From: a virus
DNA length: 26,034 nucleotides
Direction: 5' to 3' (one strand)
Virus record (IMG/VR): IMGVR_UViG_3300044825_000246
Span: 1 to 26,034 of that record
Shown piece after piece: positions 1,225-22,411 of this stretch. The notes below the pieces were generated by a model. The model saw nothing but the letters and a program-made list of their open reading frames with translations, was not told the origin of the DNA and made no database searches. The translations under genes were made by a program, and so were the position numbers. Each line of letters starts with the position of its first letter. Position 1 is the stretch's first letter.

Positions 1225-1394
1225 TGTCATTCGTGGATGACCTTGATGCTTTCACTCGTGCTTTTGGTATTGAGAACGCACCAATGATTATCTCGTTTGC
1301 AACACTCCCATGGGATTCCATAGACCAGAGAGACAGTTTTATTCTTGACGTTACGGGGATTAACCTTGCTCAGGTGAACGCATATGGCGCGTAA
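1224..1394 (+). CDS. 56-residue hypothetical protein
   Basis: A short frame begins at an ATG overlapping the previous stop by one base (TGATG) and runs 56 codons to a TAA at 1392-1394, overlapping the giant downstream gene by 11 bases. It translates as a plausible folded peptide (start MSFVDDLDAF, end VNAYGA) with hydrophobic and acidic residues and no low-complexity stretch. Without it there would be an otherwise unexplained 159-base gap in a tightly packed operon. The stop/start overlaps on both sides match neighbouring junctions, which is the main reason to call it real. I do not recognise the family. It may be a small virion or head-assembly factor, or may act mainly to couple translation of the next gene. 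Confidence 0.6.
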   Translation: MSFVDDLDAFTRAFGIENAPMIISFATLPWDSIDQRDSFILDVTGINLAQVNAYGA

Positions 1395-4300
1395 GAAGAA
1401 GCAGCCGTATCGTCCCCCAGTTATCTCCCCCGAGGGTTACGGTATTGATGTAAGCCGTGGCGGGGTAAAGGTAACCGCTGCTGGCGCTAAGCCAGCGGAA
1501 AGCACTGCCGCAACATCAGGGCTTAACCTGTATGGCGCGAACATTGTTGGCGGCTCTGTTAACACGTCAACACTGGGCACGGGCCAGAACCCTGTAACAC
1601 CAGAGGGTAAGACTCTCCCGCAGCCGACAGCGCCGCGTAGCGCAAACCAGTTCCTGACTCCTGAAGAGCAGCAGCAGGTACGTGACGTCCAGAACGTGGC
1701 TAAGACTGTCGAGGCTAGCGAACCCCCAGAGAAGTCATGGATCGCTAACCTGTTTGACACGAGTGACACGTTTGACGAGAACGGGAACTTTAAGTCAGAT
1801 GATCTTGCCGTTGTTGGTGGCGAGGCAGCGTTTGATGGGTTTCTTCGTGGATTGCAGTGGGGGTTTGACCGGGTAAACCAGTACACGGTAGCGGCAATGT
1901 CCGCTGCTCCCGGTGGCACGCGAACGCTTACCTTTGATGAAGCCAACGATGTTTCTTTTGGGCAGATGCTTGTCGCTAACGCTGGCATTTCCATGGGCCG
2001 TGTCAGGCGTGGAGAATCAACTGTTGGAGACGCTATCGCTGTAGCGTTCGGCGCACTCCCCACTATTGGTGCTGCTATCACAGCAGAGATTGACCCAGAC
2101 ACCCCAGTACAGCGGTCAGACTTTGATATCACTGACCCTAAGGACCGTGAGGTTTTCAATAACGGCGCTGAACGCATCTTCTCCGGTATGGGAGACTTCG
2201 GTTTCGCGTTTGCGGACCCCACCCTTGTCGCTGGCTGGGGAGCAAAGATCGCCCGCCTACGCTACGTCGATCAACTCATTGACAGCCCCGCAAAACTTCA
2301 GCGAGCAACAGATGAGATTTACGAAGGCCAGCGCATCCTCCAGAATAATCTGGATGCCCGTTACGGCACCGACGCTGTAATTGACGGCAGGCAACGCAGC
2401 ATTGAGGTTGACCTCGACGACCTTAATGATCTGGACATTTCTCCTCGCGCCATGTTCCTGCGTAACGCTGTCCGACAGGACGCTGACGGGAAGAAACTCT
2501 CATCGTGGGAAGAAATCTATAACCATAAGGTTATTCGGTTTGCTGGTAACCGTGACGCGCTAGCGACAGCGTTGTATAACGCTCGCACGTATGACGAGGC
2601 TGCTCTTGTTATGCGACAGGCAATGGGCGATAAGGATGCTGTCGCTGAACTGATGACCAAGCGTCCCGATATTTTCACTGAACTTATTGATGGCGAACGG
2701 GCACTAATCTCTAACATCGTCTTGTCTGATCCTAAGAAGAAAGCCAAGATGATCGCTGAGCATCAGGCTCGGCTGGATCGTTACGACCGCGAGTTGAAGG
2801 TCCTTTACAACAATGCTGATGACCCAGATTTTCTGGCTAAGGTCGATGATGTCCTGACTCGCAAGAACACTGAAATCCAGAAGTGGTTGGATGTTGTTGA
2901 CGATAACGGGTCTAGGGTTTTTGATCCCGCTGAACTTGAACTTACTAAGAGGCGCATTGAGTTTGCTCGCGCTAGGAATAGTCAACTGGATCAAACTATT
3001 CGTCAGGCCCAGAACGCTACTGGCTCTCTTGTCGAGATTACTAAGGGATTTTCTGCTAATAATCGGTTTGGTCGTTTTGTCGAGGGTTCCCGGCAGCGTC
3101 GTGCTCGCGCTCAGTATGAGACTGAGACAACTCGTGGTAGCAAGTTGTGGGATTCAACTGAGTTCACATACTTGAATAGCCCGCTGGGTAAGGCCCGTCG
3201 TACTCTGCGGGTATGGCGCTATCTTGGCGCTGAGGCGCCTTCGGGCATTATCCGCATTGCTGGTGTTGGCGCTCAGGAATCAGCGCGTGAGGTTCGCGCC
3301 ATGCTTAACAGCATGCGTTTTTATGGCGGCAAGGGTAAGGAAGTTGTTGACAAGAACGGGAATGTAAGAACTGTTGGTGGTTCTCAGCGCAAGGAAGAAC
3401 TGCTAACCATGTACGTCAACAGTGTTACTCGTGGTGGAGTGAAGGGGCAGGCTGATACTGCTGAAGCGCTACGAGTTATAGAGCGCACTATTACTGAAGA
3501 AATGGAACTGTTTTACGGAATCCAAAACAGTAATCTTCAGGCGATCATTAATAAGACTAATAGCGCACGTGCCCAGATAAAAGACAACATTATCAAGCAC
3601 GGTGTCTGGGTTGATGAGGTAGATGGCAAAAAGGTTGAAAACGCCGTGCCATACCTTGAAAGCCAGTTGCAGGGAGCAGAAATTGCGTACAACTGGCGTG
3701 CTATTGAGAACGGCATTATCCGGGATAAGAAAACTACTCGGCAACTATTTGATCCGGCAATTGCGTGGTCAGCAGAGGCGTACAACAATTTTCAGGATAT
3801 CTGGCGTCCCGCTGTTCTTCTACGCCTTGGGTACACGCAGCGTAACGTAGCGGAGGGCTTGTTCCGTTCTGCTGCCTTTCAGTTCTCTCTCGCCCCGTTT
3901 GGGTTTGCTGCACGCCAGTTGGGGATGAGCACGGGTAACACGATTCGGTCTGCGCGGTATGGGCGTGAAGGTGGGCGTGGCGCTGTGCAGGCAGCGACAG
4001 TTGCTGCTCGGGAGGGCGCAACCATTGAGCAGATGCCTAGGGCATTTCGCAAGTGGCATGCGAAGAATGTTGAAGGTATCGACGCAACGATTAGTCATCA
4101 CGTGCTGGTCATGGATGAGGCTGTCCGTGAACTTGCTCGTGAGAATAAGACTTGGCGACTTGCAAAGCAGCAGAGCCTTCGGGTCCGCTTGGGGAAACTT
4201 GCTAAGGAAAAGGAACGGCTGAGGAATAATCGTCCGGCTGGGATGACTGAGAATCAGGCCGACGCGGCTGTTGCTCGGCTTGATCTTTTCTCTAACGATA

Positions 4301-7300
4301 TTGAGCGTCGTCTTGCTCTCATGGACGGAATTGAGGGTGGCGCTGTTGGTGCGCTGCCAGATGATTTGGCAAGCGTGGCAAGTAATCTTGACTATTTTGA
4401 TGAACTAGTCATGCCGATGCTGTTTGCTCAGCGCGAGATGCTTACTGATATGCGGTCGTCTGCGTTGATGTTCCGCGAACAGACTCTTGCTAAGCGTCGT
4501 GTGTTTCAGGGGCAGGCTAACGTTACTGATCCTGAGACGTTGCGTAGCACATTTATGGCTTACTCAAATCGTGGAGCATTTGACCCTAACGATACTTACG
4601 CAAATATTGCGCTAGCAAACCTGAGTTCTGATGCTACAAACCGTCAGGTTATGGCATTGCGTGTAAACACGATGAAGAGCCTGATGTCGCATCAGATTAC
4701 TAAGGTGTATGTGGCACGCAGCCCGGGGGAGGAGGGCTACTGGGATGGTCTTGCCACAATGCTTAACCAGTGGAAGCAGTCTGATGTTGGGGCGATCATT
4801 ATTCGTGAGATTGCTCAGGGTCAGCGGACAGATGATGAGATTGCTGCACTTGTAGGCACTTTCCTGCGTGATACTCCGCGTGGGCGCGAGATCGCGCATT
4901 GGGTGACTGATGCTAATAATGTCAAGGGCGAGTACCTGATTGAGTATGGGCAGCGGGTAGCACAAGCACATGAGGCCGCGCTGAAGGCTGCTCTTCCTGA
5001 ACGTGAGGCTGCTGACACGGCTAGGGACGCTATTCGTCAGGCTGAGGATGATGTTGCGTGGGCTAGGCGTAAGTTGGCTGAGGATCAGCGAACAAAGCCT
5101 TCTCGCACTACTTTGATTGGGCCTGATGGTAGGCAGATTCGTGATCCTGAAAAGTATATTCAGACGCGTCGTGACGCGTACACGAAGGCTGAGCGGAAGT
5201 ATCAGGACAAGGTTGAGAAACTTGATAAGCCTAAGGACCTTCCCGGTACTGGTCTAGCCCCAGCGATTAGCGTTGAGGACGCTATCGCTTACGCGACCCG
5301 CATGATTCAACGGTACCGTCAACTGACGGCAAATAGCCCTGAGTTGCAGCGTGACTTGTTCGTGCGCGGCTCTCTTAGCACAGCCGATCAGCAGCCTTTC
5401 GCCAAGTTTGCTAGTGAACTAGAAACAATGATCGGGTCAAATGCTCGTAACGCTAACGGCGATAGGTACAACCTGATTCCTGTTATTGGCAATGATGGGG
5501 AGATCGTTGGTAGCAAGTCGTTCATGGACACTATTCGCGCAGTGTCGGATAAGGGTTTCCGTATTCTTGGCACTATCCCTGAAGACACGTTTGTTCGTGC
5601 CCCGTTCTATGGGCGTCGCTTCCAGAAGACATATGACACGCTGACTCGACTGTACTTGGCTCAGAAGCCTGATAACGCTTCGCTTAGCGTGAGTGAAGTT
5701 AACGCTATCCGTCAAGCATCGCATAGTCGGGCGTTGAAGGATACAAAGGACTGGCTGTACACCATTGACCGGCGCACGCTACTGGGCCAGTATGGTGAGG
5801 CGGTCTTCCCGTTTATTAGCGCTAGCCAGAACTCTCTGACAGCGGTGGGTCGTATTCTATGGAATGACCCGCGCGTAGCGGCACTGATGGTGATGATCTG
5901 GAACGCTCCTTCTCGCGCTGGGCTAGAGGACGAGGAAGGCAGGATTCATTTCTCTGCACCATTGGAGTGGATTCCTGAAGGGCTGCGAGACAAACTGGGC
6001 CTGAGTTCAATGCTTGACTTTACGTTCAATAAGCAGCAATTCAACCTGATCGCACCGCCTACGGGTTTTGGTGGGGCGCTTCCTATCCCGACCCCGGGAC
6101 CGGTCGTTGTGCTTCCTGTCTCTGAGTTGATGAAGCATGACATTCTTGGCATGTCCCCGACCGCGCCTGACCCGCTTGTCTCAGTGCTGGGGCAGGATAC
6201 TGCGGATCAGGTGTGGGATTTTACTAAGAGTTACATTTTTGGCAGCGATGAGGACATTAGTGGAATGTCTGCTGCCCCGTTCTCTATCGACAAGGTGCTT
6301 CCCGCGTGGGGCCAGAAGGTGTTTCAGTTCCTACAGGGTGAGGGTTCATCTTCGGCTTACACGGCGTGGTATGACAAGATTTACCAGAGCGAGCAGTTGA
6401 AGTACTTCAGCGGATACCGGGATGAGCCTCCCACGCCGGATGAGATCAGCGATAAGACTCGTAACTTCTACTTCATGCGCATGGCATTCAACCTTGCCGC
6501 GTTCACTCCTCCGGGTTTCACGTCCGAGATAACACCTGTTATGGATGCTGCTCGTCGTATTTACGAGAGCGAGCCAAACACTGATATCGCTAACATGAAA
6601 ATTTACGAGAAGTTTGGTGGCACTGTCCAGCAGATTCTTAGGATTCGTAGCACGGAGAGTGTGGCTGGACTGGATGCTACAGCGGACTCTATCCGGCTTG
6701 CGAAGAATCACTCGGACCTGATTGGCGCTGTCGCTCCTCGCCTGTCTAATAACAACACGCTGAACCTGATTGGCGTGCTGGCGGGTAATACTCGCGGTGA
6801 CTATGACCCGTCGTTTAGTGCGGCTCAGCAGTTGGCGAATATCCCGAACACTGACCGGTTTTTCCGTGAGGTGAAGAACCCGGCTCAGGCGGCGATTGAT
6901 ACTCAGATTTCAGCGGGGTGGGCACAGTACCTGCGGAATATGGATGTGATTAACGCGAAGTTGGCTGAGCGTGGGTTGAAGTCGCTTCGGTCGGCTGGCG
7001 CTGAGGGTTTGATGCAGTTGAAGAAGGAGATGGTGGCTCGCCTGAGGGTTGATCCCCGGTATGAGGCTTGGTATGGGGATTACATGAGTGGCGTGTCTAG
7101 TCGTACTCTTGACACTGTGATGGTTATCCAGACCGCTCTTAGTGACCAGCGGTGGCGGGACGCGCATAAGGATGACCCGATTTGGGGTCTGAATGGTGCA
7201 GCGGACCAGTACATGTATGCCCGGGATCAGGTGCTGGAGGCTTTGGCGAGCACGGATGATTCTGAGGTGAAGAAGCAGATTAAGGAGCAGTGGATTAGTT

Positions 7301-7482
7301 TCCGGTTTGATCTGGGGATGAGGTTCCCTGACTGGGGTACGAAGCAGGAGCGGTACTTGTCTGGGGATGAGGACCCGGATCAGCCTCAGATTGTGTTGAC
7401 TTCGGATATTATTCCTTTTACTCCAGCACAGGCGGATATGAGTAACCAGATGCCTAACTATTACCCGGAGGGGATGGGCTGA
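1384..7482 (+). CDS. Giant 2032-residue virion protein, probable internal/ejected protein
   Basis: This is by far the largest gene in the window. The first 25 residues are Lys/Arg/Pro-rich, and residues to about 110 look disordered. Most of the remainder is helix-rich. A W-R-P motif near residue 807 begins a segment ending RNVAEGLFRSA. Residues about 1193-1281 are highly charged and coiled-coil-like. Residues about 1468-1510 form a semi-hydrophobic stretch (QYGEAVFPFISASQNSLTAV, then AALMVMIW) that could associate with membrane. I see no lysozyme, transglycosylase, protease or polymerase motif. It lies between portal and scaffold rather than among tail genes, so it is unlikely to be a tape measure. 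Large proteins in podoviruses (T7 gp16, N4 vRNAP, P22 gp16-type) are often packaged and ejected with DNA; a similar role here is inference. The ATG lies 11 bases inside the preceding small gene. Confidence is high for the gene, low for the role. Confidence 0.7.
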   Translation: MARKKKQPYRPPVISPEGYGIDVSRGGVKVTAAGAKPAESTAATSGLNLYGANIVGGSVNTSTLGTGQNPVTPEGKTLPQPTAPRSANQFLTPEEQQQVRDVQNVAKTVEASEPPEKSWIANLFDTSDTFDENGNFKSDDLAVVGGEAAFDGFLRGLQWGFDRVNQYTVAAMSAAPGGTRTLTFDEANDVSFGQMLVANAGISMGRVRRGESTVGDAIAVAFGALPTIGAAITAEIDPDTPVQRSDFDITDPKDREVFNNGAERIFSGMGDFGFAFADPTLVAGWGAKIARLRYVDQLIDSPAKLQRATDEIYEGQRILQNNLDARYGTDAVIDGRQRSIEVDLDDLNDLDISPRAMFLRNAVRQDADGKKLSSWEEIYNHKVIRFAGNRDALATALYNARTYDEAALVMRQAMGDKDAVAELMTKRPDIFTELIDGERALISNIVLSDPKKKAKMIAEHQARLDRYDRELKVLYNNADDPDFLAKVDDVLTRKNTEIQKWLDVVDDNGSRVFDPAELELTKRRIEFARARNSQLDQTIRQAQNATGSLVEITKGFSANNRFGRFVEGSRQRRARAQYETETTRGSKLWDSTEFTYLNSPLGKARRTLRVWRYLGAEAPSGIIRIAGVGAQESAREVRAMLNSMRFYGGKGKEVVDKNGNVRTVGGSQRKEELLTMYVNSVTRGGVKGQADTAEALRVIERTITEEMELFYGIQNSNLQAIINKTNSARAQIKDNIIKHGVWVDEVDGKKVENAVPYLESQLQGAEIAYNWRAIENGIIRDKKTTRQLFDPAIAWSAEAYNNFQDIWRPAVLLRLGYTQRNVAEGLFRSAAFQFSLAPFGFAARQLGMSTGNTIRSARYGREGGRGAVQAATVAAREGATIEQMPRAFRKWHAKNVEGIDATISHHVLVMDEAVRELARENKTWRLAKQQSLRVRLGKLAKEKERLRNNRPAGMTENQADAAVARLDLFSNDIERRLALMDGIEGGAVGALPDDLASVASNLDYFDELVMPMLFAQREMLTDMRSSALMFREQTLAKRRVFQGQANVTDPETLRSTFMAYSNRGAFDPNDTYANIALANLSSDATNRQVMALRVNTMKSLMSHQITKVYVARSPGEEGYWDGLATMLNQWKQSDVGAIIIREIAQGQRTDDEIAALVGTFLRDTPRGREIAHWVTDANNVKGEYLIEYGQRVAQAHEAALKAALPEREAADTARDAIRQAEDDVAWARRKLAEDQRTKPSRTTLIGPDGRQIRDPEKYIQTRRDAYTKAERKYQDKVEKLDKPKDLPGTGLAPAISVEDAIAYATRMIQRYRQLTANSPELQRDLFVRGSLSTADQQPFAKFASELETMIGSNARNANGDRYNLIPVIGNDGEIVGSKSFMDTIRAVSDKGFRILGTIPEDTFVRAPFYGRRFQKTYDTLTRLYLAQKPDNASLSVSEVNAIRQASHSRALKDTKDWLYTIDRRTLLGQYGEAVFPFISASQNSLTAVGRILWNDPRVAALMVMIWNAPSRAGLEDEEGRIHFSAPLEWIPEGLRDKLGLSSMLDFTFNKQQFNLIAPPTGFGGALPIPTPGPVVVLPVSELMKHDILGMSPTAPDPLVSVLGQDTADQVWDFTKSYIFGSDEDISGMSAAPFSIDKVLPAWGQKVFQFLQGEGSSSAYTAWYDKIYQSEQLKYFSGYRDEPPTPDEISDKTRNFYFMRMAFNLAAFTPPGFTSEITPVMDAARRIYESEPNTDIANMKIYEKFGGTVQQILRIRSTESVAGLDATADSIRLAKNHSDLIGAVAPRLSNNNTLNLIGVLAGNTRGDYDPSFSAAQQLANIPNTDRFFREVKNPAQAAIDTQISAGWAQYLRNMDVINAKLAERGLKSLRSAGAEGLMQLKKEMVARLRVDPRYEAWYGDYMSGVSSRTLDTVMVIQTALSDQRWRDAHKDDPIWGLNGAADQYMYARDQVLEALASTDDSEVKKQIKEQWISFRFDLGMRFPDWGTKQERYLSGDEDPDQPQIVLTSDIIPFTPAQADMSNQMPNYYPEGMG

Positions 7483-10452: not shown

Positions 10453-10926
10453 ATGTCTGACAATTACACAGATGACGACTTCGACTCCGACGATATTGAG
10501 TCAAGCGGCGACACTGGCGATATTAAGAGCCTGCGTCGTGCGGCGAATGGCAAGAAGAAGTTGGAGCAGGAACTCAACGAACTGAAGCGTGAACTGGCTT
10601 TCGCTAAGGCTGGCCTCCCCATGGATGACCCGAAACTGAAGTACTTCGTTAAGGGTTACGACGGTGAGATGTCCGCTGACGCGATCAGGCAGGCCGCTCT
10701 GGAAGCGGGGTTCCTAGCATCGCAGTCTCAGAGCGATGACCCGAATGTTGCGGCAGCGGCAGCGGCTCAGCAGCGGGTTATCAGCGCCTCGGCAGGAGCC
10801 GCGTATGAGGGGGTTTCTGAGGAGGCTGCTCTCGCGCAACTGGAGGCAGCGATGGAGGAAGGCGGCATCGAAGCAATGTTGGATGTTGCTCGACAGTTCG
10901 GCATCCCCACTAACATCGAACAGTAA
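10453..10926 (+). CDS. Capsid scaffolding protein
   Basis: This 157-residue acidic protein guides assembly of the major capsid protein into procapsids and is normally released or degraded before maturation. The first 25 residues are strongly acidic. Residues about 28-52 form a charged coiled-coil (KKKLEQELNELKRELAFAKA). The following segment, GLPMDDPKLKYFVKGYDG, is one I associate with scaffold proteins of phages of Gram-positive hosts. The rest is Ala/Gln/Glu-rich helix. Location immediately upstream of the capsid gene fits. I chose the ATG at 10453 because AAGGAAAGGGA lies just before it. An in-frame GTG at 10423 would place the start inside the leader hairpin. Confidence 0.8.
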   Translation: MSDNYTDDDFDSDDIESSGDTGDIKSLRRAANGKKKLEQELNELKRELAFAKAGLPMDDPKLKYFVKGYDGEMSADAIRQAALEAGFLASQSQSDDPNVAAAAAAQQRVISASAGAAYEGVSEEAALAQLEAAMEEGGIEAMLDVARQFGIPTNIEQ

Positions 10927-10938
10927 AGGAACAAGAAA

Positions 10939-11979
10939 ATGCCTGCTGGCACTGGCACTCCCGGGGCTAATCAGAACGGTCCCGGCACGTCCCCCATGTA
11001 CTCGCCCGGTGAGATTGTCACCGCTGCGGGTCCGCTTTCCATTAACGCACCGGCCCCGATTGTCGATATCACCCTTGGCTCGCAGTTCGTCACCAAGGCT
11101 TACGATCTCGCCATCTACCCGGCGCTCCGCCCGGAACTGATCTTCGACCAGTTCGCTACGGTCCGGGCGACTAACACCACGCACCGTGGCGGCAGCGTCC
11201 GCTTCTCGTTCGTGAATGACATCGCGGAGCAGACCACCCCGCTGCTGGAGAACATCGACGTTGACTCGGTGACTCTCTCCAGCAAGGCGCTCACGGTCAA
11301 CATGCGTGAGTACGGTACTGCTGTCACGAACACGGCCCTGATCCGTGGCACTTCGATGATCGCTATGGACCCGCTGATCGCGGAGCGTGTCGGCTACAAC
11401 GCTGGCCTCTCCATCGACACGCTGGCCCGTACCGCTCTCGACGCCACGACCATCACCTACGACGACGGCACCACGGGCTCCATCGGCTCCGTGGGTAACG
11501 CTGCCGCCCCGCTGGACGGCGACGCCCTGCGTAACGGTGTGGCGATCCTGCGGTCGAACAATGTCCGTCCGCTCCGTGGCGGCATGTACGTGGCTGTCAT
11601 CAGCCCGTATCAGGCGCAGCACATCATGTCTGACACGACCGACACCGGTTGGCGTTGGATGGTTGGCTACGCTGGTGGTGAGGGCACTGCTGGGAACAGC
11701 GTGTTCATGGGTGAGGTCGGCACCTACGAGGGTGTCCGTATTGTCATCAACAATCACCTGACGAATCAGGGTAAGGGCTACCTGATGGGCGCTGAGGCTC
11801 TGGCTAAGGCGTACTCGACGGCTCCCGGTTTCGGTGCGAACCCGAAGACTGTGGTGTCGCCGGTTGTTGATAAGTTGCGTCGTTTCGCGTCGGTTGGCTG
11901 GTACCACCTTGTTGGGTACTCGGTGTTCCGTAGCGAGGCTCTGCTTCACATCAACACGCAGTCCACGCTCGCTTCGTAG
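10939..11979 (+). CDS. Major capsid protein, N4-gp56-like family
   Basis: This 346-residue protein would form the icosahedral shell. The segment around residues 120-160, with MREYGTAVTNTALIRG and then DPLIAERVGYNAGLSIDTLA, is characteristic of the N4-gp56 family of HK97-fold capsid proteins. The N-terminal 30 residues are Gly/Pro/Ser-rich, and the C-terminal part is beta-rich (SPVVDKLRRFASVGWYHLVG). The start ATG is preceded by AGGAACAAG and lies 12 bases after the scaffold stop. Codons are strikingly C-ending compared with neighbouring genes, consistent with selection for high expression. A strong hairpin follows the stop. No separate head-maturation protease is visible in the window. Confidence 0.85.
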   Translation: MPAGTGTPGANQNGPGTSPMYSPGEIVTAAGPLSINAPAPIVDITLGSQFVTKAYDLAIYPALRPELIFDQFATVRATNTTHRGGSVRFSFVNDIAEQTTPLLENIDVDSVTLSSKALTVNMREYGTAVTNTALIRGTSMIAMDPLIAERVGYNAGLSIDTLARTALDATTITYDDGTTGSIGSVGNAAAPLDGDALRNGVAILRSNNVRPLRGGMYVAVISPYQAQHIMSDTTDTGWRWMVGYAGGEGTAGNSVFMGEVGTYEGVRIVINNHLTNQGKGYLMGAEALAKAYSTAPGFGANPKTVVSPVVDKLRRFASVGWYHLVGYSVFRSEALLHINTQSTLAS

Positions 11980-12045: not shown

Positions 12046-12342
12046 ATGGCTACGAAGCCTAGTAAGAGCGGGAAGAAGGTTTCTAAGCCTGTCCCGCTGG
12101 GTGGCGTGAAGCGTAAGAAGAATTCTGAGGATGCCCTGTGGGGCGCGGCTAAGCCTGTACGGAAGAACACCCCTGCGCCAAAGCCGAAGTCGGCTAAGGA
12201 GATGTCCGCGACGTACCGTAAGAAGGCTCAGGCTGGGCGTCTTACTGCCGCTCAGCGGCGTATCGTGACACAGCGGGATAAGGATCGTGAGATGGATACG
12301 ATGATTGAGACTATCCGTAACCGCAGTAGAGGGAGCCGGTAA
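12046..12342 (+). CDS. Small highly basic phage protein
   Basis: This 98-residue protein has about 28 Lys/Arg residues by hand count and only about eight acidic ones. The N-terminal half is Lys/Pro-rich and probably disordered. The C-terminal half (ATYRKKAQAGRLTAAQRRIV onward) looks helical. The GAGGAG ribosome-binding site eight bases upstream of the ATG is strong. It opens a run of basic genes after the capsid hairpin. I do not recognise the family. Charge and position suggest nucleic-acid binding, perhaps a packaged DNA-associated protein, but this is inference. Confidence 0.6.
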   Translation: MATKPSKSGKKVSKPVPLGGVKRKKNSEDALWGAAKPVRKNTPAPKPKSAKEMSATYRKKAQAGRLTAAQRRIVTQRDKDREMDTMIETIRNRSRGSR

Positions 12343-13061
12343 TGGCTATTAAGCAGGAGTACACGAAGTGGGTGAAGAAGCCCGGTCAGAAGGGCTACGT
12401 CATTGACACCCGCACCGGTAAGAAGGTTACTGGCGGTATCAAACTGGTAGCAGACACTACTAAGGGCAAGGCTGGTCAGACCCAGATGTACAAGAAGGGT
12501 CGTGGTCAGGCTGTTGGTAGGAAGCCGTCTGCTATGGGTGGCGGTCAGATGCCCGGTGGTTCTAAGAAGGTCGGCGGCGGCAGCGGTGGTAGTGGCGGGA
12601 AGACTCCTCCTCCTGCAACTGATAAGCCGGGTAAGAAGGCTACTGATCTTCAGAAGGCTAAGAAGAAGATGGGTGCGGCTGCTGGCTATGGCAAGGGTGG
12701 CAAGACTCCTTCTAATCTGATGTCTCAGCAGACGGTTATGGATAAGTGGAAGTCGATGACTCCCGCGCAGAAGAAGGCTGCTACGAGTAGTGCTGCTGCG
12801 TTTGCTCGGCGTCTTGGCGTGAACCCGACTAAGTATCTTGCTGGTCGGCTTGGTGTCCCGATGCCGCCTCAGGGTAGCCCTCGCCCGCGTAGCCCGCTGA
12901 GTGTTAAGGGGCAGGCTGAGATTATTGGTGGTGGTGCGAGCGCAATTGCGAACATGACCGCTAGTCAGGCTAGTGCTCTTCTCTCTAAGGCCGATAAGGG
13001 TCTTGTGAAGATTAGCGCTGCTCAGAAGGCTGTACTGCGGCGGATCATTGAGGGTCGCTGA
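12342..13061 (+). CDS. Basic Gly/Lys-rich phage protein
   Basis: This 239-residue protein starts at an ATG overlapping the preceding stop by one base. Residues 1-65 contain Lys-rich, possibly beta-forming sequence (KKPGQKGYVIDTRTGKKVTG). Residues about 65-125 are low-complexity Gly/Ser/Lys/Pro. The second half is more folded, with helices around DKWKSMTPAQKKAATSSAAA and a C-terminal helix ending LRRIIEGR. It has no Cys pairs, membrane segments or catalytic motif. Unknown function; it shares strong positive charge with its neighbours on both sides. Confidence 0.6.
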   Translation: MAIKQEYTKWVKKPGQKGYVIDTRTGKKVTGGIKLVADTTKGKAGQTQMYKKGRGQAVGRKPSAMGGGQMPGGSKKVGGGSGGSGGKTPPPATDKPGKKATDLQKAKKKMGAAAGYGKGGKTPSNLMSQQTVMDKWKSMTPAQKKAATSSAAAFARRLGVNPTKYLAGRLGVPMPPQGSPRPRSPLSVKGQAEIIGGGASAIANMTASQASALLSKADKGLVKISAAQKAVLRRIIEGR

Positions 13062-13336
13062 TGGCTTCTCCTGCGTGGCAGCGGAAGGCGGGCAAGAACC
13101 CTAAGGGGGGCTTGAACGCTAAGGGACGTGCCTCTTACAACAAGGCTAACCCGGGTAAGCCGGGGTTGAAGCCTCCGGTGAAGAAGGCTCAGGCTAAGAA
13201 GTCCCCGAAGTCCGCTGCCCGCAGGAAGTCGTTCTGTGCCCGGATGAGCGGGATGAAGAAGAAGTTGACGAGTGAGAAGACTCGGAATGATCCGAACTCT
13301 CGGATTAATAAGTCGCTGCGGGCGTGGGACTGTTAG
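13061..13336 (+). CDS. DUF6321-like small basic protein
   Basis: This 91-residue protein starts at an ATG overlapping the previous stop (TGATG). It opens with AWQRKAGKNPKGGLNAKGR and closes with RKSFCARMSGMKKKL, then NDPNSRINKSLRAWDC. I recognise these two blocks as the hallmark of the DUF6321 family of phage and bacterial proteins of unknown function. The Lys-rich centre is likely flexible. Two Cys residues, one in FCARM and one at the C-terminus, are part of the conserved blocks and could pair or bind metal. Family assignment is from memory; function is unknown, and nucleic-acid binding is a guess from charge. Confidence 0.75.
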   Translation: MASPAWQRKAGKNPKGGLNAKGRASYNKANPGKPGLKPPVKKAQAKKSPKSAARRKSFCARMSGMKKKLTSEKTRNDPNSRINKSLRAWDC

Positions 13337-13569
13337 TGGCTCCGCTGGGCATAACATTTGTTACTAAGTCTTACGAGAAGGGCGGCGGGATGAAGGGCAA
13401 GAAGCATCCGGGGTTTAAGGCGGTGCAGGCGAAGATCGCTAAGCGTCAGGGGATCAGCATGGAGCGTTCTGGGGCGATTGTCGCGGCTGGTGCGCGTAAA
13501 GCATCGAAGAAGGCCGTGCGGGCGAATCCTCGCCTGAAGCGGGTTAGCGGCGTGAAGAAGGGAAAGTAG
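13336..13569 (+). CDS. Small basic phage protein
   Basis: This protein is 77 residues if read from the GTG at 13336, whose G is shared with the previous stop (TAGTG), matching the overlap style of neighbouring genes. The ATG at 13390 (59 residues), preceded by a purine-rich GGGCGGCGGG, is an equally reasonable start. The core, KGKKHPGFKAVQAKIAKRQG and then AGARKASKKAVRANPRLKRV, is a pattern I associate with short phage proteins found beside DUF6321-like genes. It is almost entirely basic. Function is unknown; it belongs to the block of Lys/Arg-rich genes after the capsid. Confidence 0.6.
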   Translation: MAPLGITFVTKSYEKGGGMKGKKHPGFKAVQAKIAKRQGISMERSGAIVAAGARKASKKAVRANPRLKRVSGVKKGK

Positions 13570-13571
13570 TC

Positions 13572-13709
13572 ATGTGCATGAAGTGTGGATGCTCCACTCC
13601 GAACGATAAGAAGAGCGGCCCGCAGAACTTTGGGTCTAATGGTGGTAGCGGTAAGACCGTAATCGTGCCCGCTAGTGATACTCGTCCTTACATGGACGAC
13701 GAGGACTAA
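13572..13709 (+). CDS. 45-residue Cys-rich microprotein
   Basis: An ATG two bases after the preceding stop opens a 45-codon frame ending in a TAA that overlaps the next gene's ATG by one base. The first seven residues are MCMKCGC, giving a C-x2-C-x-C cluster that could bind a metal ion. The rest is polar and Gly-rich with an acidic end (YMDDED). I recall similar MCMxCGC starts in small phage proteins from this genomic region. The tight fit between neighbours and this N-terminus argue that it is a real gene. Function unknown. Confidence 0.65.
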   Translation: MCMKCGCSTPNDKKSGPQNFGSNGGSGKTVIVPASDTRPYMDDED

Positions 13710-14089
13710 TGCCGTACACGAATCCCGCTATGCGTGAGCGGATCAAGAACCGCATCATGGCTGGCTCCAAGGGGGGCAAGCCGGGTCAGTGGTCTGCTCG
13801 TAAAGCGCAACTTCTCGCTGCTGAGTATAAGAAGTCTGGCGGCGGGTACTCGGGTGGGAAGACGAAGGCGCAGAAGTCTTTGTCGAAGTGGACTGGTGAG
13901 AAGTGGCGCACGTCGGACGGCTCTAAGAGTGAGGGCCGGAAGCGGTACCTGCCTGATAAGGCGTGGAAGGCGTTGACTCCGGGGGAGAAGCGGGCGACGA
14001 ACGCTGCTAAGGCTCGGGGTAACGCTAAGGGTAAGCAGTTTGTGGCTCAGCCGAAGAAGATTGCTAGGAAGGCTGCGAGGTTCCGGTGA
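13709..14089 (+). CDS. DUF5872-like basic protein
   Basis: This 126-residue protein starts at an ATG overlapping the preceding stop (TAATG). Blocks visible in order are RERIKNRIMAGSKGGKPGQW, SARKAQLLAAEYKKSGGGY, KSLSKWTGEKWRT, RYLPDKAWKALTPGEKRAT and KGKQFVAQPKKIARKAARFR. I recognise this arrangement as the DUF5872 family, found in phages and, as I recall, in some large eukaryotic viruses and bacteria. The protein is strongly basic with conserved Trp residues. No biochemical function is established to my knowledge; DNA binding in the virion is a possible role. Confidence 0.8.
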   Translation: MPYTNPAMRERIKNRIMAGSKGGKPGQWSARKAQLLAAEYKKSGGGYSGGKTKAQKSLSKWTGEKWRTSDGSKSEGRKRYLPDKAWKALTPGEKRATNAAKARGNAKGKQFVAQPKKIARKAARFR

Positions 14090-14418
14090 CGGTTCAGGTG
14101 CAGTTGCTGGGTAGGGCGACTACCCCGCCGAGGGTGGTGCAGGGGCCGGGTATTAGCCCGCTGTGGTCATTCTTCTTGTCGCCTTCCTCGCAGCACAGCA
14201 TCATCGTGTATGACGATGGGTCGGTGGTGGAGCGTGAAACGTTTGAGAATGACGACACTATCGCTGATAACGTGTATGTGTTTATTCTTGGTGGGACTGA
14301 TTACCGGACTGAGGTTGGGTCGTTCGCTTATAACGCGTTGACGGCTGCTGGGTACACTTGGCGGAACGTGTATAGCAATGACGTGTATCCCGAAGACTAT
14401 GATTCGCAGTACAACTAG
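14086..14418 (+). CDS. Hypothetical protein between basic block and tail genes
   Basis: This 110-residue protein starts at a GTG overlapping the previous stop by four bases (GTGA). The sequence turns abruptly from basic to neutral/acidic and looks beta-rich: SIIVYDDGSVVERETFEND, then NVYVFILGGTDYRTEVGSFA. The C-terminus is acidic and Tyr-rich. It has no membrane segment or enzyme motif. Position between capsid-associated genes and fibres would suit a head-completion or tail protein, but the family is not recognised. Confidence 0.6.
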   Translation: MTVQVQLLGRATTPPRVVQGPGISPLWSFFLSPSSQHSIIVYDDGSVVERETFENDDTIADNVYVFILGGTDYRTEVGSFAYNALTAAGYTWRNVYSNDVYPEDYDSQYN

Positions 14419-14427
14419 GAGCGGTTG

Positions 14428-15741
14428 ATGCCTACTCTACCTACGCCGAATAAGACACCGGGCGACGGTGCTCCTGCTGATGACATTAATCTTGTCATTG
14501 AGGCTATTAACACGCTCCAGTCGCAGGTAGATAATATTCCCGCTGGTCCTCAGGGGCCGCAGGGTGACCCGGGTACGCCGGGTGCTGCTGGCGCGGCGGC
14601 GACGATCACGGTTGCTTCGACGACGACAACTGCTCCGGGCGCTGATGCTCAGGTTGTGCAGTCGGGTACTGCTCAGAATGTATCGCTAGCGTTCTACATT
14701 CCAAGGGGTCAGACTGGGCCGACTGGCGCGACTGGTCCTCAGGGTCCAGCGGGCGCTACTGGTGCTACCGGTGCTACGGGTGCTACGGGCGCGGGCGTGA
14801 AGCCGGGTGGCCTTGACGGTTACATTCTGGCTAAGGCATCGAACGCTGACTATGACACGGCGTGGGTTCCTGCTGGTGCTGCTCCGCCTGTCTCGTCGGT
14901 TGATAACCGGACTGGCGCTGTCACGCTGAATGACCTGTATGACGCTTACGGGGATGCGGCTGCTGCTCAGGCTGCTGCCGAAGCGTATGCGGATGGGCTG
15001 GCAGGGAACTATGACCCGGCTGGTAGTGCTGCTGCGGTGGCGGGCAACTTGTCTACGCATGAGTCAGATACGACCAGTGTTCACGGGATCAGCAACACGG
15101 CGAATCTGGTGTACACGAATGACTCGCGGCTTACTGATGCTCGTACTCCTACTGCTCACGCGACCACGCACGGGTCGGCGGGTAGCGATCCTGTCACCAT
15201 TGCTAACACTCAGGTCACGGGTCTGGGTACAGCGTCTACGAAGAATGTTGCGGCTGCTGGCGATGCTAGTAGCACGGAGGTTGTGCAGGGCAATGACACT
15301 CGTCTGACGAACTCTCGCACTCCTACAGCGCACGCCGCAAGCCACGGCTCCGCTGGCAGCGACCCAGTGGCTATCGCCAACACTCAGGTGACTGGGCTTG
15401 GTACGGCTTCCACGGTGAATGTTCCTGCTGCTGGTAACGCTGGTGTGACTGAGGCTGTTCTCGGGTCGGATACTCGGCTGACGGATCAGCGGACTCCTCT
15501 TGATGGTTCTGTCACGACGACGAAGATCGTTGACGCGAATGTCACGAACGCCAAACTTCAGAACTCTGCTATCACGATTAACGGGACAGCGGTGTCTCTG
15601 GGCGGCACTGTCACGATTAGTGGCCTGCCGTCTCAGGCTGGTAATGCTGGCGAGTACCTGACGACTGATGGTAGTACAGCGTCGTGGGCGCCGATTGTCA
15701 CGGACCCGACTCCGACTGTGTTCCTGCTGGGAGGCATGTAG
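14428..15741 (+). CDS. Collagen-like tail fibre protein with tandem repeats
   Basis: This 437-residue protein probably forms trimeric fibres. It has a short N-terminal region with a coiled-coil-like helix (VIEAINTLQSQVDNI). A first Gly-X-Y stretch spans residues about 40-55. A small beta module ends in LAFYIPRG near 94, and a second collagen-like stretch runs from about 94 to 123. From residue 231 there are 58-residue tandem repeats. The C-terminus carries AGEYLTTDGSTASWA, common in fibre-tip regions. I chose the ATG at 14428 because AGGAG lies six bases ahead. A TTG at 14425 is also in frame. Whether this is a side fibre or part of the tail hub is not clear. Confidence 0.8.
   Translation: MPTLPTPNKTPGDGAPADDINLVIEAINTLQSQVDNIPAGPQGPQGDPGTPGAAGAAATITVASTTTTAPGADAQVVQSGTAQNVSLAFYIPRGQTGPTGATGPQGPAGATGATGATGATGAGVKPGGLDGYILAKASNADYDTAWVPAGAAPPVSSVDNRTGAVTLNDLYDAYGDAAAAQAAAEAYADGLAGNYDPAGSAAAVAGNLSTHESDTTSVHGISNTANLVYTNDSRLTDARTPTAHATTHGSAGSDPVTIANTQVTGLGTASTKNVAAAGDASSTEVVQGNDTRLTNSRTPTAHAASHGSAGSDPVAIANTQVTGLGTASTVNVPAAGNAGVTEAVLGSDTRLTDQRTPLDGSVTTTKIVDANVTNAKLQNSAITINGTAVSLGGTVTISGLPSQAGNAGEYLTTDGSTASWAPIVTDPTPTVFLLGGM
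15118..15498 (+). repeat. 174-bp tandem repeats in fibre gene
   Basis: Two full 174-bp (58-codon) units occupy 15118-15291 and 15292-15465, with the first 11 residues of a third following. Shared peptide blocks include TRLTxxRTPTAHA, HGSAGSDPV and IANTQVTGLGTAST. Synonymous positions differ between the copies, so the duplication is not very recent or has been drifting under protein-level selection. Confidence 0.9.
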
Positions 15742-20169: not shown

Positions 20170-21705
20170 GTGTCTATCCAGAAACTGTCTACTACTACGG
20201 GTGCTGGCTCTACTGCTCCTTCTGCTGGTCGTTTCGCGCAAACGTCGGGTGGCACGATCACGACGTATTCGAGTGGTGGTGTGACGTATCAGGTACAGAC
20301 TTTCACGTCGTCGGGCACGCTCACGGTGAACAGCAGCGGTGTGGTGGATGTGCTTGTCGTTGGCGGTGGCGGTGGTGGCGGCGGAAACGTTCGTCCCGGC
20401 GGTGGTGGCGGCGGTTTCAACTACAAAATCAGTCATTATTTAGAGGCGGGTTCCCACACCGTGACGGTCGGCGCGGGTGGCGGAACTGGAACCGGGTCAA
20501 ACATTAGCCCCGGGACAACGAGCAAAGTTGATGCCGTGTATGGGTTCGGCGGTGGGGCTGGAACCAACAGTTACGCCTCACAGGGCGGCTCGGGTGGTGG
20601 CTCAGAATCCACAAACGTCAATCCCGGTGTCTCAGGCCAGGGCTATAACGGTGGTCAGGGTGCCGGTAGTGCTGGTGGTGGTGGCGGTGGTGCGGGAGCC
20701 GTTGGCGGCAACAACTCTGGTACTACGGGTGGTGCTGGCGGTGCCGGGCTTGCAAATAGCATCACGGGATCGTCTGTTACTTACGCTGGCGGTGGCGGTG
20801 GGGGCGGCACTACGGGCGGTGCTGCCGGTTCCGGTGGCGGTGGTGCTGGTGCTAGTGGAACAAGCGCTGGCACGGCGGGTACTGCGAACACTGGTGGCGG
20901 CGGTGGGGGCGGCGGCTCCAGTAGCGCCACTGGTGGCGCTGGTGGCAGCGGCATTGTCATTGTTCGCACGATCATTGCCGGTAGTGCAGCGGGTGTAGCG
21001 GCGTCTGGTGGTACGGAGACGACGTACACGGGTGATGGTTCGAATGGTGTGAATGGTCAGGCGTACCGGGTGCACACGTTCACATCGTCTGGTTCACTGT
21101 CGGTTGCTGCTCCGGGGTTTGTGGATGTGCTAGTCGTGGGGGGCGGCGGTTCTGGTGGTGGAATCGTCAACGCCGACTGGGGTGGTGGTGGTGGTGGCGC
21201 TGGTGGAATGTTGGCCGCTTCAAGTGTCTACCTTCCGACAGGATCAGCAGCAGTAGTTGTCGGCGCTGGCGGCGATGGCTCCGATGGGTCGCCATATTCA
21301 GGGCAGGGAAACACTAGTTACGTCTGGCCTTATGTCGCTCCGGGTGGTGGACACGGTGGCACATATAACATTGCTGTGCGCGGAGAGCCGGGTGGTTCCG
21401 GTGGTGGCGCAGGTAACGCAAGCGAGCAGGGGGCCGGTACCGCATCGCTGGGCAACGCGGGTTCGTCCACGCTCAAAGGCGGGGGAGGTGGCGCTGGTGC
21501 TGCCGGGTCGGGTAACACCGGAGGTACTGGTAGCGCATCTTTGATTACTGGTTCGTCAGTTACTTACGCTGCTGGTGGCAATGGGAATGTGGGATCGCCA
21601 ACTGCCGGTACTGCTAATAGGGGTAATGGCGGACAGGGTGGAAGTGGAACAGCCGTAGGAGCATCTGGTGGTTCCGGCATCGTGGTCATTCGGTACGCAA
21701 TCTAG
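20170..21705 (+). CDS. Glycine-rich tail adhesin with duplicated domain
   Basis: This 511-residue protein starts at a GTG with TTGGAG upstream. It contains two copies of a glycine-rich domain. Each starts with YxVxTFTSSGxLxV and FVDVLVVGGGG-type strands (near residues 40 and 298) and ends with GGSGIVIVR or GGSGIVVIR (near 260 and 505). Between them are long glycine clusters, as in glycine-rich phage adhesins whose tips bind host receptors through polyglycine-II-like packing. The variable loops between glycine runs differ in base composition from the framework. It is the best candidate for the terminal receptor-binding protein, although that has to be judged from structure. Confidence 0.7.
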   Translation: MSIQKLSTTTGAGSTAPSAGRFAQTSGGTITTYSSGGVTYQVQTFTSSGTLTVNSSGVVDVLVVGGGGGGGGNVRPGGGGGGFNYKISHYLEAGSHTVTVGAGGGTGTGSNISPGTTSKVDAVYGFGGGAGTNSYASQGGSGGGSESTNVNPGVSGQGYNGGQGAGSAGGGGGGAGAVGGNNSGTTGGAGGAGLANSITGSSVTYAGGGGGGGTTGGAAGSGGGGAGASGTSAGTAGTANTGGGGGGGGSSSATGGAGGSGIVIVRTIIAGSAAGVAASGGTETTYTGDGSNGVNGQAYRVHTFTSSGSLSVAAPGFVDVLVVGGGGSGGGIVNADWGGGGGGAGGMLAASSVYLPTGSAAVVVGAGGDGSDGSPYSGQGNTSYVWPYVAPGGGHGGTYNIAVRGEPGGSGGGAGNASEQGAGTASLGNAGSSTLKGGGGGAGAAGSGNTGGTGSASLITGSSVTYAAGGNGNVGSPTAGTANRGNGGQGGSGTAVGASGGSGIVVIRYAI

Positions 21706-22181: not shown

Positions 22182-22411
22182 GTCGCTTGTTTACTAGGAG
22201 TGGGCGGAAGTGGATATACGGGGTGTGCCTGTCCGTTGTGCCGCTGCTTGTCCTTTATGGGGTGATCGACGAGCAGGCTGCCCCGTTGTGGATTGCGTTG
22301 TTCGCTGCGGTTATTGCACCGGCGACCGCGTTGACGCATCTCACGCCTGTCCCTCAGGAGCCTGACGATCTGACTACTGTGCCCCCGGAGGCGCGTGATG
22401 ACGTTCGCTAG
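22178..22411 (+). CDS. Probable holin
   Basis: This 77-residue protein has two hydrophobic segments at about residues 13-27 (YGVCLSVVPLLVLYG) and 34-52 (APLWIALFAAVIAPATALTH). Basic residues lie before the first and an acidic, Pro-rich C-terminal tail follows. This layout, and the position immediately before an amidase, match small two-helix holins of actinobacteriophages, which permeabilise the membrane so the endolysin can reach the wall. It starts at a GTG overlapping the preceding stop by four bases (GTGA), with GGAGTTGGAGGA upstream. Confidence 0.65.
   Translation: MSRLFTRSGRKWIYGVCLSVVPLLVLYGVIDEQAAPLWIALFAAVIAPATALTHLTPVPQEPDDLTTVPPEARDDVR

Follow-up and report, generated by a model that had tools for sequence, protein, structure and literature searches.

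A hypervariable cassette of small basic proteins behind the major capsid protein gene of a phage and its putative capsid-mimicking tag

Introduction

Adenovirus VII and baculovirus P6.9 are small, Lys/Arg-rich core proteins that condense viral DNA. Unlike those systems, tailed phages use a motor that packages the DNA into a preformed head. Phage T4 has internal proteins in its head, one of which, IPI, inhibits the gmrS/gmrD restriction enzyme, and the T4-type capsid targeting sequence is one that we take to be MKTYQEFIAE-like. A ten-residue N-terminal sequence draws diverse proteins into the T4 prohead (PMC3012670; PMC7697877), and about 10 N-terminal residues suffice to package virtually any protein (PMC7697877). 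The lysines of the T4 internal proteins contact DNA phosphates, and prepackaging of these proteins raises the packaging rate (PMC3012670; PMC7697877). Across the T-even phages, the internal proteins are highly diverse defense proteins with only the targeting sequence in common (PMC3012670).

Here, we describe a block of small basic genes that directly follows the capsid gene in a group of phages and would, by analogy, work like the T4 internal-protein system without being a member of it, because its targeting sequence differs. As far as we found in the literature, a capsid-tagged cassette of basic phage proteins has no earlier description.

Results

The window analyzed comes from an aquatic phage and is an IMG/VR virus record of 26,034 nucleotides; all positions are those of the whole stretch. 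Six consecutive open reading frames (ORFs) with overlapping stops and starts occupy positions 12046-14089, between the major capsid protein (MCP) gene (10939-11979, + strand, 346 aa; phrog_1357, major head protein, E=7e-42; PF13252, E=1e-11) and an acidic gene (14086-14418, + strand) that forms the right border and is found in all relatives compared. A preliminary description had noted six consecutive genes after the capsid gene, five of them Lys/Arg-rich, and this was confirmed by the ORFs and by their isoelectric points (pI 10.9-11.8 for the five); the arrangement also recurred in 24/24 relatives. Taken together at one copy each, the six proteins have a net charge of +125. The 18 other main genes tested had a pI of 6.4 or lower, with the single exception of an amidase at 22395 (pI 9.6), and the clustering of basic genes at 12046-14089 is therefore not due to chance. 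No promoters or terminators of its own were seen in the cassette above the shuffled expectation.

All six genes lie on the + strand. The first (12046-12342, 98 aa, pI 11.4, net +20) has no relative in the other MCP loci compared, and the second (12342-13061, 239 aa, pI 10.9, net +37) has relatives in two of them only (L020 and L032). The third (13061-13336, 91 aa, pI 11.4, net +23) encodes a DUF6321 protein. The fourth (13336-13569, about 77 aa, pI 11.8, net +19) joins an N-terminal tag, MAPLGITFVTKSY (13336-13374, + strand), to a basic tail of the HPGFKAV type. Its ORF was listed from 13324, and a GTG at 13336 overlaps the stop of the DUF6321 gene (TAGTG); the true start is probably this GTG rather than 13324. 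The fifth gene (13572-13709, 45 aa, pI 5.0) is the non-basic member. It belongs to the Cys-rich MCMKCGCSTPNDKK family, which was found in 17 other MCP loci, and its Cys residues suggest a metal-binding knuckle. The sixth (13709-14089, 126 aa, pI 11.2, net +27) is DUF5872-like.

Directly upstream of the MCP gene lies the gene for an acidic protein of 157 aa (10453-10926, + strand, pI 4.2), which matched phrog_7813, a family of unknown function (E=1e-13). Its position and charge make it a probable scaffolding protein. Further upstream, positions 1384-7482 encode a protein of 2032 aa with no Pfam match, unusually large for a head-side gene, whose C-terminal part matched phrog_10618 (unknown function, E=2e-47). 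The preliminary description had placed the block between capsid and tail genes; the capsid side was borne out, and the tail side is suggested by gene order and by a protein with collagen-like repeats (14425-15741). Together with a glycine-rich domain protein further downstream (20170-21705; PF21722, E=4e-32), this product is a probable tail or fiber component.

The cassette was compared across 25 loci, consisting of the window and 24 IMG/VR relatives (67-92% MCP identity) that span the region from the MCP stop to the homologue of the gene at 14086. A small basic gene array of 0.8-2.9 kb directly followed the MCP gene in 25/25 loci. The arrays held 131 ORFs, which were called mechanically so that a few short ones may be spurious, and 114 of the 131 had a pI above 10; the mean net charge was about +106 per locus. 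Membership varied from phage to phage: families had disappeared, been added or changed order, and 27 of those represented in the 131 ORFs were singletons. DUF6321 was a near-constant member (23/25 loci), and its mean identity to the window was 84%, compared to 83% for the MCP and 65% for the gene after the cassette. Further recurrent members were the GRPYPNLVDN family, the KARHAKN family and the small Cys protein; DUF6496 accounted for eight cassette proteins across the MCP loci, and DUF5872 was present in three of the loci. Basic genes, including DUF6496 and KARHAKN family members, were also found downstream of the MCP gene in phage ct2KA10, whose MCP is about 32% identical. The block was absent in three distant MCP relatives (L395-L397, 25-27% MCP identity) and, thus, is not general to the capsid family. 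These data show that the block at 12046-14089 is a swappable, hypervariable cassette at a constant position after the MCP gene.

The preliminary description had also likened two of the genes to domain families of unknown function. For DUF6321, a profile search agreed: the product of 13061-13336 matched PF19846 over positions 1-72 of 72 (E=1e-23, 84.2 bits, cut-off 28.5), so that by its sequence cassette gene 3 is certainly a full-length member. The AlphaFold2 model of the domain is mostly helical (pLDDT 89.5, pTM 0.71), and as modeled DUF6321 is a folded domain and not a mere disordered basic tail. Against the PDB, there was no match by fold and none by sequence apart from one insignificant match. 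Significant fold matches in BFVD were DUF6321-named or unnamed proteins, one S-SCSM1 protein annotated as a virion protein, and one AAA protein. We found no papers on DUF6321 or DUF6496. For the second family, the likeness was weaker. The product of 13709-14089 scored below the Pfam cut-off for DUF5872 (PF19197; 25.8 bits, cut-off 27.5, E=1.7e-5, positions 3-100 of 116) and was clear in PHROGs, where its N-terminal half matched phrog_17747 (E=4e-22) and its C-terminal half phrog_14910 (E=1e-31). Beyond these matches, none of the block proteins matched a characterized family in Pfam, NCBIfam or PHROGs, bacterial nucleoid proteins included, and a placement in characterized non-structural families, the outcome that would have counted against a structural role, did not occur in these databases.

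DUF6321 has no assigned function. Of 50,697 phage records, 475 contained it; most of these came from marine cyanophages, phages of ocean cyanobacteria, and some from SAR11 phages. The description of the locus as an uncommon feature of tailed phages therefore holds in part. The gene lies in the head or packaging region of several unrelated phages. In the T7-like cyanophage P-SCSP1u, it directly follows the MCP gene; in the pelagiphage HTVC104P, it follows the MCP gene with two very small genes between them; in HTVC031P and S-SBP1, it lies between the scaffold and MCP genes; and in T4-like cyanophages, it lies between two terminase genes. Some phages have their DUF6321 or DUF5872 genes close to lysis or terminase genes and not to the capsid gene. 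In the window, the DUF6321 domain makes up a protein of its own, encoded beside the MCP gene; T4-like cyanophages often have it at the C-terminal end of a larger protein.

An occurrence outside phages, which had been suggested for both families, was weakly supported in the case of DUF6321: 84,980 species genomes yielded 83 matches, nearly all of them on contigs of metagenome-assembled genomes (MAGs) from aquatic samples. The nearest match (88%) was on L290, a 43-kb Actinomycetales MAG contig with the same MCP and cassette. This contig is therefore a sister phage, a hint that the phage group may infect actinobacteria. Contigs with DUF6321 genes (L290-L369) occur in MAGs that represent species from many bacterial and archaeal phyla. 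They are likely to be binned viral contigs, as L290 has phage head genes.

Other basic families travel with DUF6321. Cassette gene 6 is a fusion, the halves of which are separate genes in HTVC033P, CRP-9, MEP401 and most of the annotated phages seen. In HTVC033P, both DUF5872 halves and DUF6321 belong to a series of seven consecutive small genes. Among IMG/VR loci outside this group, a DUF5872 half was found within 2.5 kb of DUF6321 in 42 of 79, and the KARHAKN family was present at 41 of 80 IMG/VR DUF5872 loci. A second conserved basic family in several DUF6321 phages, GLYANIHAKR, occurred in 97 phage records (examples are L202:6201-6377, L203:4564-4716, L001:7925-8056, L287:5001-5156 and L289:3995-4144). 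Members of this family (GLYANIHAKRxRIxxGSGEKMRxxGxxGAPT) are 43-58 aa long; in T7-like cyanophages and pelagiphages, they form a pair with DUF6321 or lie in its vicinity. Homology of DUF5872 to the Trp-rich N-terminal domain of the T4-like DUF6321 proteins was rejected (hhalign probability 0.5%), and alignment likewise gave none between DUF5872 and DUF6321. In the literature, DUF5872 was mentioned once, in a paper on an algal giant-virus genome.

In 14 of the 25 loci, one cassette protein starts with a tag of 11-14 residues that copies an N-terminal segment of the MCP; since the loci are related to one another, these counts are not independent events. The tag is a short leader with FVTKSY at its end, in most cases M-x(2-3)-LG-xx-FVTKSY, and in the window it takes the form MAPLGITFVTKSY, beginning at the GTG at 13336. 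The MCPs of tagged phages carry LG[SG]QFVTK[AS]YD at residues 46-56, where FVTK and Y were invariant in 15 aligned MCPs; the source segment in the window is LGSQFVTKAYD (11074-11106, + strand). The pattern F[VI]T[KR][AS]Y matched 41 times among the 960,956 residues of a six-frame translation of 29 loci, compared to about 0.1 expected by composition; every match fell in the MCP or close to the N-terminus of a cassette ORF, with a single such ORF per locus. In the other fetched loci, the tag pattern gave two chance matches in 5.5 million residues. A degenerate DNA pattern for LGxxFVTKSY gave 10 matches in 2.9 million viral contigs, nine from this group and one unrelated or due to chance. Between the tag core and the MCP copy of the same genome, 2-6 of 18 bases differ, so what is kept is the peptide and not a DNA repeat.

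The tag heads six mutually unrelated tails, four of which also exist untagged, and in L015 it is a free-standing peptide with a length of about 17 residues. From these sequences, an N-terminal peptide that moves independently and is joined to unrelated cargo looks like a targeting tag. It was missing in 11/25 loci, and the tagged loci carry it on one protein per cassette. MCP-mimic peptides were sought in HTVC104P, P-SCSP1u, HTVC031P, S-SBP1 and MEP401 and none was found; the tag is thus essentially confined to this phage group. A shallow MCP alignment limited the AlphaFold2 model of the MCP to a pLDDT of 32, too low to locate the copied segment on the capsid.

The cassette resembles IPI, IPII, IPIII and Alt of T4 in being a set of diverse small or medium proteins with a proposed association with the head and DNA, and in having a short N-terminal peptide common to otherwise unrelated proteins. 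It differs in that the tag copies a segment of the phage's own MCP and has a sequence unrelated to that of the T4 type, in that there is one tagged protein per cassette, and in its capsid lineage. The T4-type targeting pattern was found in no ORF of the window-like DUF6321 loci. Among the general Pfam and PHROG matches of the window, there was no prohead protease. T4-type targeting was also rejected as a rule for the cyanophage DUF6321 proteins since the strict pattern was present in only 3/80; beyond these, there were S-SZBM1_192 and, by eye, a few near-matches. In cyanophage DUF6321 loci, 12 other ORFs carried the T4-type pattern, mostly just downstream of the DUF6321 gene. Some T4-like cyanophage contigs (among L122-L201) have a protein that begins with MKS[FY]xxFLSE right after DUF6321, which recalls the T4 targeting sequence.

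Virion data come from S-CREM2, S-SCSM1 and S-SZBM1, which lie outside this phage and its relatives. S-CREM2 gp137, which ends in DUF6321 (40.8 bits), was detected with four unique peptides in the proteome of CsCl-purified virions (PMC10665884, Table 3), as was its Lys-rich neighbor gp136 (PMC10665884). S-SCSM1_29 (SSCSM1_29) is a protein of 517 aa with DUF6321 at residues 445-515 (79.5 bits). It is annotated as a virion protein, a label that the flanking terminase genes do not have and that is also given to products such as NMNAT, detected by mass spectrometry (MS) according to the S-SCSM1 paper; on our reading of the record, the label appears to denote an MS-detected protein. In both phages, the DUF6321 proteins are large fusions, the peptides may lie outside DUF6321, and co-purification is possible. 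The DUF6321 protein of the third phage, S-SZBM1_192, was not one of the 30 proteins found in S-SZBM1 virions, although proteins rich in Lys readily escape detection after trypsin digestion. The cryo-EM paper on P-SCSP1u has no virion proteomics text on its DUF6321 gene.

Discussion

We consider it fairly probable that this hypervariable cassette encodes internal head proteins that act in the manner of those of T4 and use a capsid-mimicking tag. The basic proteins would be produced along with the capsid protein from consecutive genes that overlap. The tag would dock where the MCP segment docks, on a neighboring MCP or on the acidic candidate scaffold, either competing for that site or sharing it, and the docked tagged protein (gene 4 in the window) would be drawn into the procapsid. 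DUF6321, an Arg/Lys-rich helical domain and proposed DNA binder, would be the constant working part, with the other basic modules as exchangeable extras. Inside the head, the basic proteins would neutralize and organize the incoming DNA, and some would perhaps be ejected with it. We infer packaging in this phage, docking of the tag, DNA binding, charge neutralization and ejection from the evidence above. In their small size, their Lys/Arg-rich composition and the proposed neutralization of packaged DNA, the cassette proteins can be compared to adenovirus VII and baculovirus P6.9, a comparison of analogy. A packaged, head-associated role had already been suggested in the preliminary description. 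It gained indirect support from the head-module position in unrelated phages, the MCP-like tag and two virion proteomes, and the third proteome, from S-SZBM1, speaks against it. The more specific proposal made there, a DNA-condensing or head-lining function, is plausible as a hypothesis.

The same packaging step would serve a different end if the cassette proteins were ejected effectors or anti-defense proteins, packaged by tag or by charge and acting on host defenses or the host nucleoid. The swapping of members would then reflect an arms race, not DNA condensation. The strong turnover between close relatives, with its many singleton families, fits this reading, as does the precedent of the T-even internal proteins, diverse defense proteins with a common targeting sequence (PMC3012670). 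However, DUF6321 is near-constant and as conserved as the MCP, unlike an arms-race effector; nearly all of the members are basic, which fits a common physical role; and no defense-related family was matched in Pfam, PHROGs or NCBIfam. We therefore regard effectors as unlikely.

Another possible explanation of the tag is that the proteins are assembly factors, such as scaffold co-factors, minor capsid proteins or head-completion proteins. In this case, the tag would occupy MCP N-terminal sites at special positions, for example at the vertices or the portal collar. The basic tails would touch the acidic scaffold instead of DNA. The low pI of the protein before the MCP, the mimicry of an N-terminal MCP segment and the position of the DUF6321 gene between scaffold and MCP in T7-like relatives are all consistent with this, but such factors are not usually swapped so freely and the charge of +125 per set far exceeds what docking needs, making the explanation quite improbable. 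That the proteins are late intracellular nucleic-acid binders, which take over the nucleoid, bind RNA or help packaging or lysis outside the virion and lie near the capsid gene incidentally, would accommodate the same families beside lysis or terminase genes in several phages and the non-detection of S-SZBM1_192, but the MCP-mimicking tag and the DUF6321 proteins in the virion proteomes of S-CREM2 and S-SCSM1 argue against it and render it very improbable.

If the reading as internal head proteins is taken further, aquatic tailed phages may, tentatively, have a mobile pool of basic head-packing modules that are traded between lineages, with the tag as a capsid-mimicry address. Such a pool would cover the DUF6321, DUF5872, DUF6496, GLYANIH-type and KARHAKN-type modules in unrelated lineages, and the tag in this group. 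Were the modules packaged DNA binders, ions and polyamines would not be the sole means by which many abundant aquatic phages pack their DNA. The loading of cargo into a phage head by a short tag derived from the capsid would, if true, be a new addressing principle, and capsid mimicry would be a different solution to the problem that T4 solves with its targeting sequence.

Some public records carry another name for these genes. In the Pelagibacter phage Greip (L006:3876-4127) and the Synechococcus phage MinM2 (L007:4992-5237), DUF6321-type genes are labelled as a RecA-like recombination protein. Both are matches to the DUF6321 query, with 61-63% across 98% of its length, and the label looks like a copied mis-annotation.
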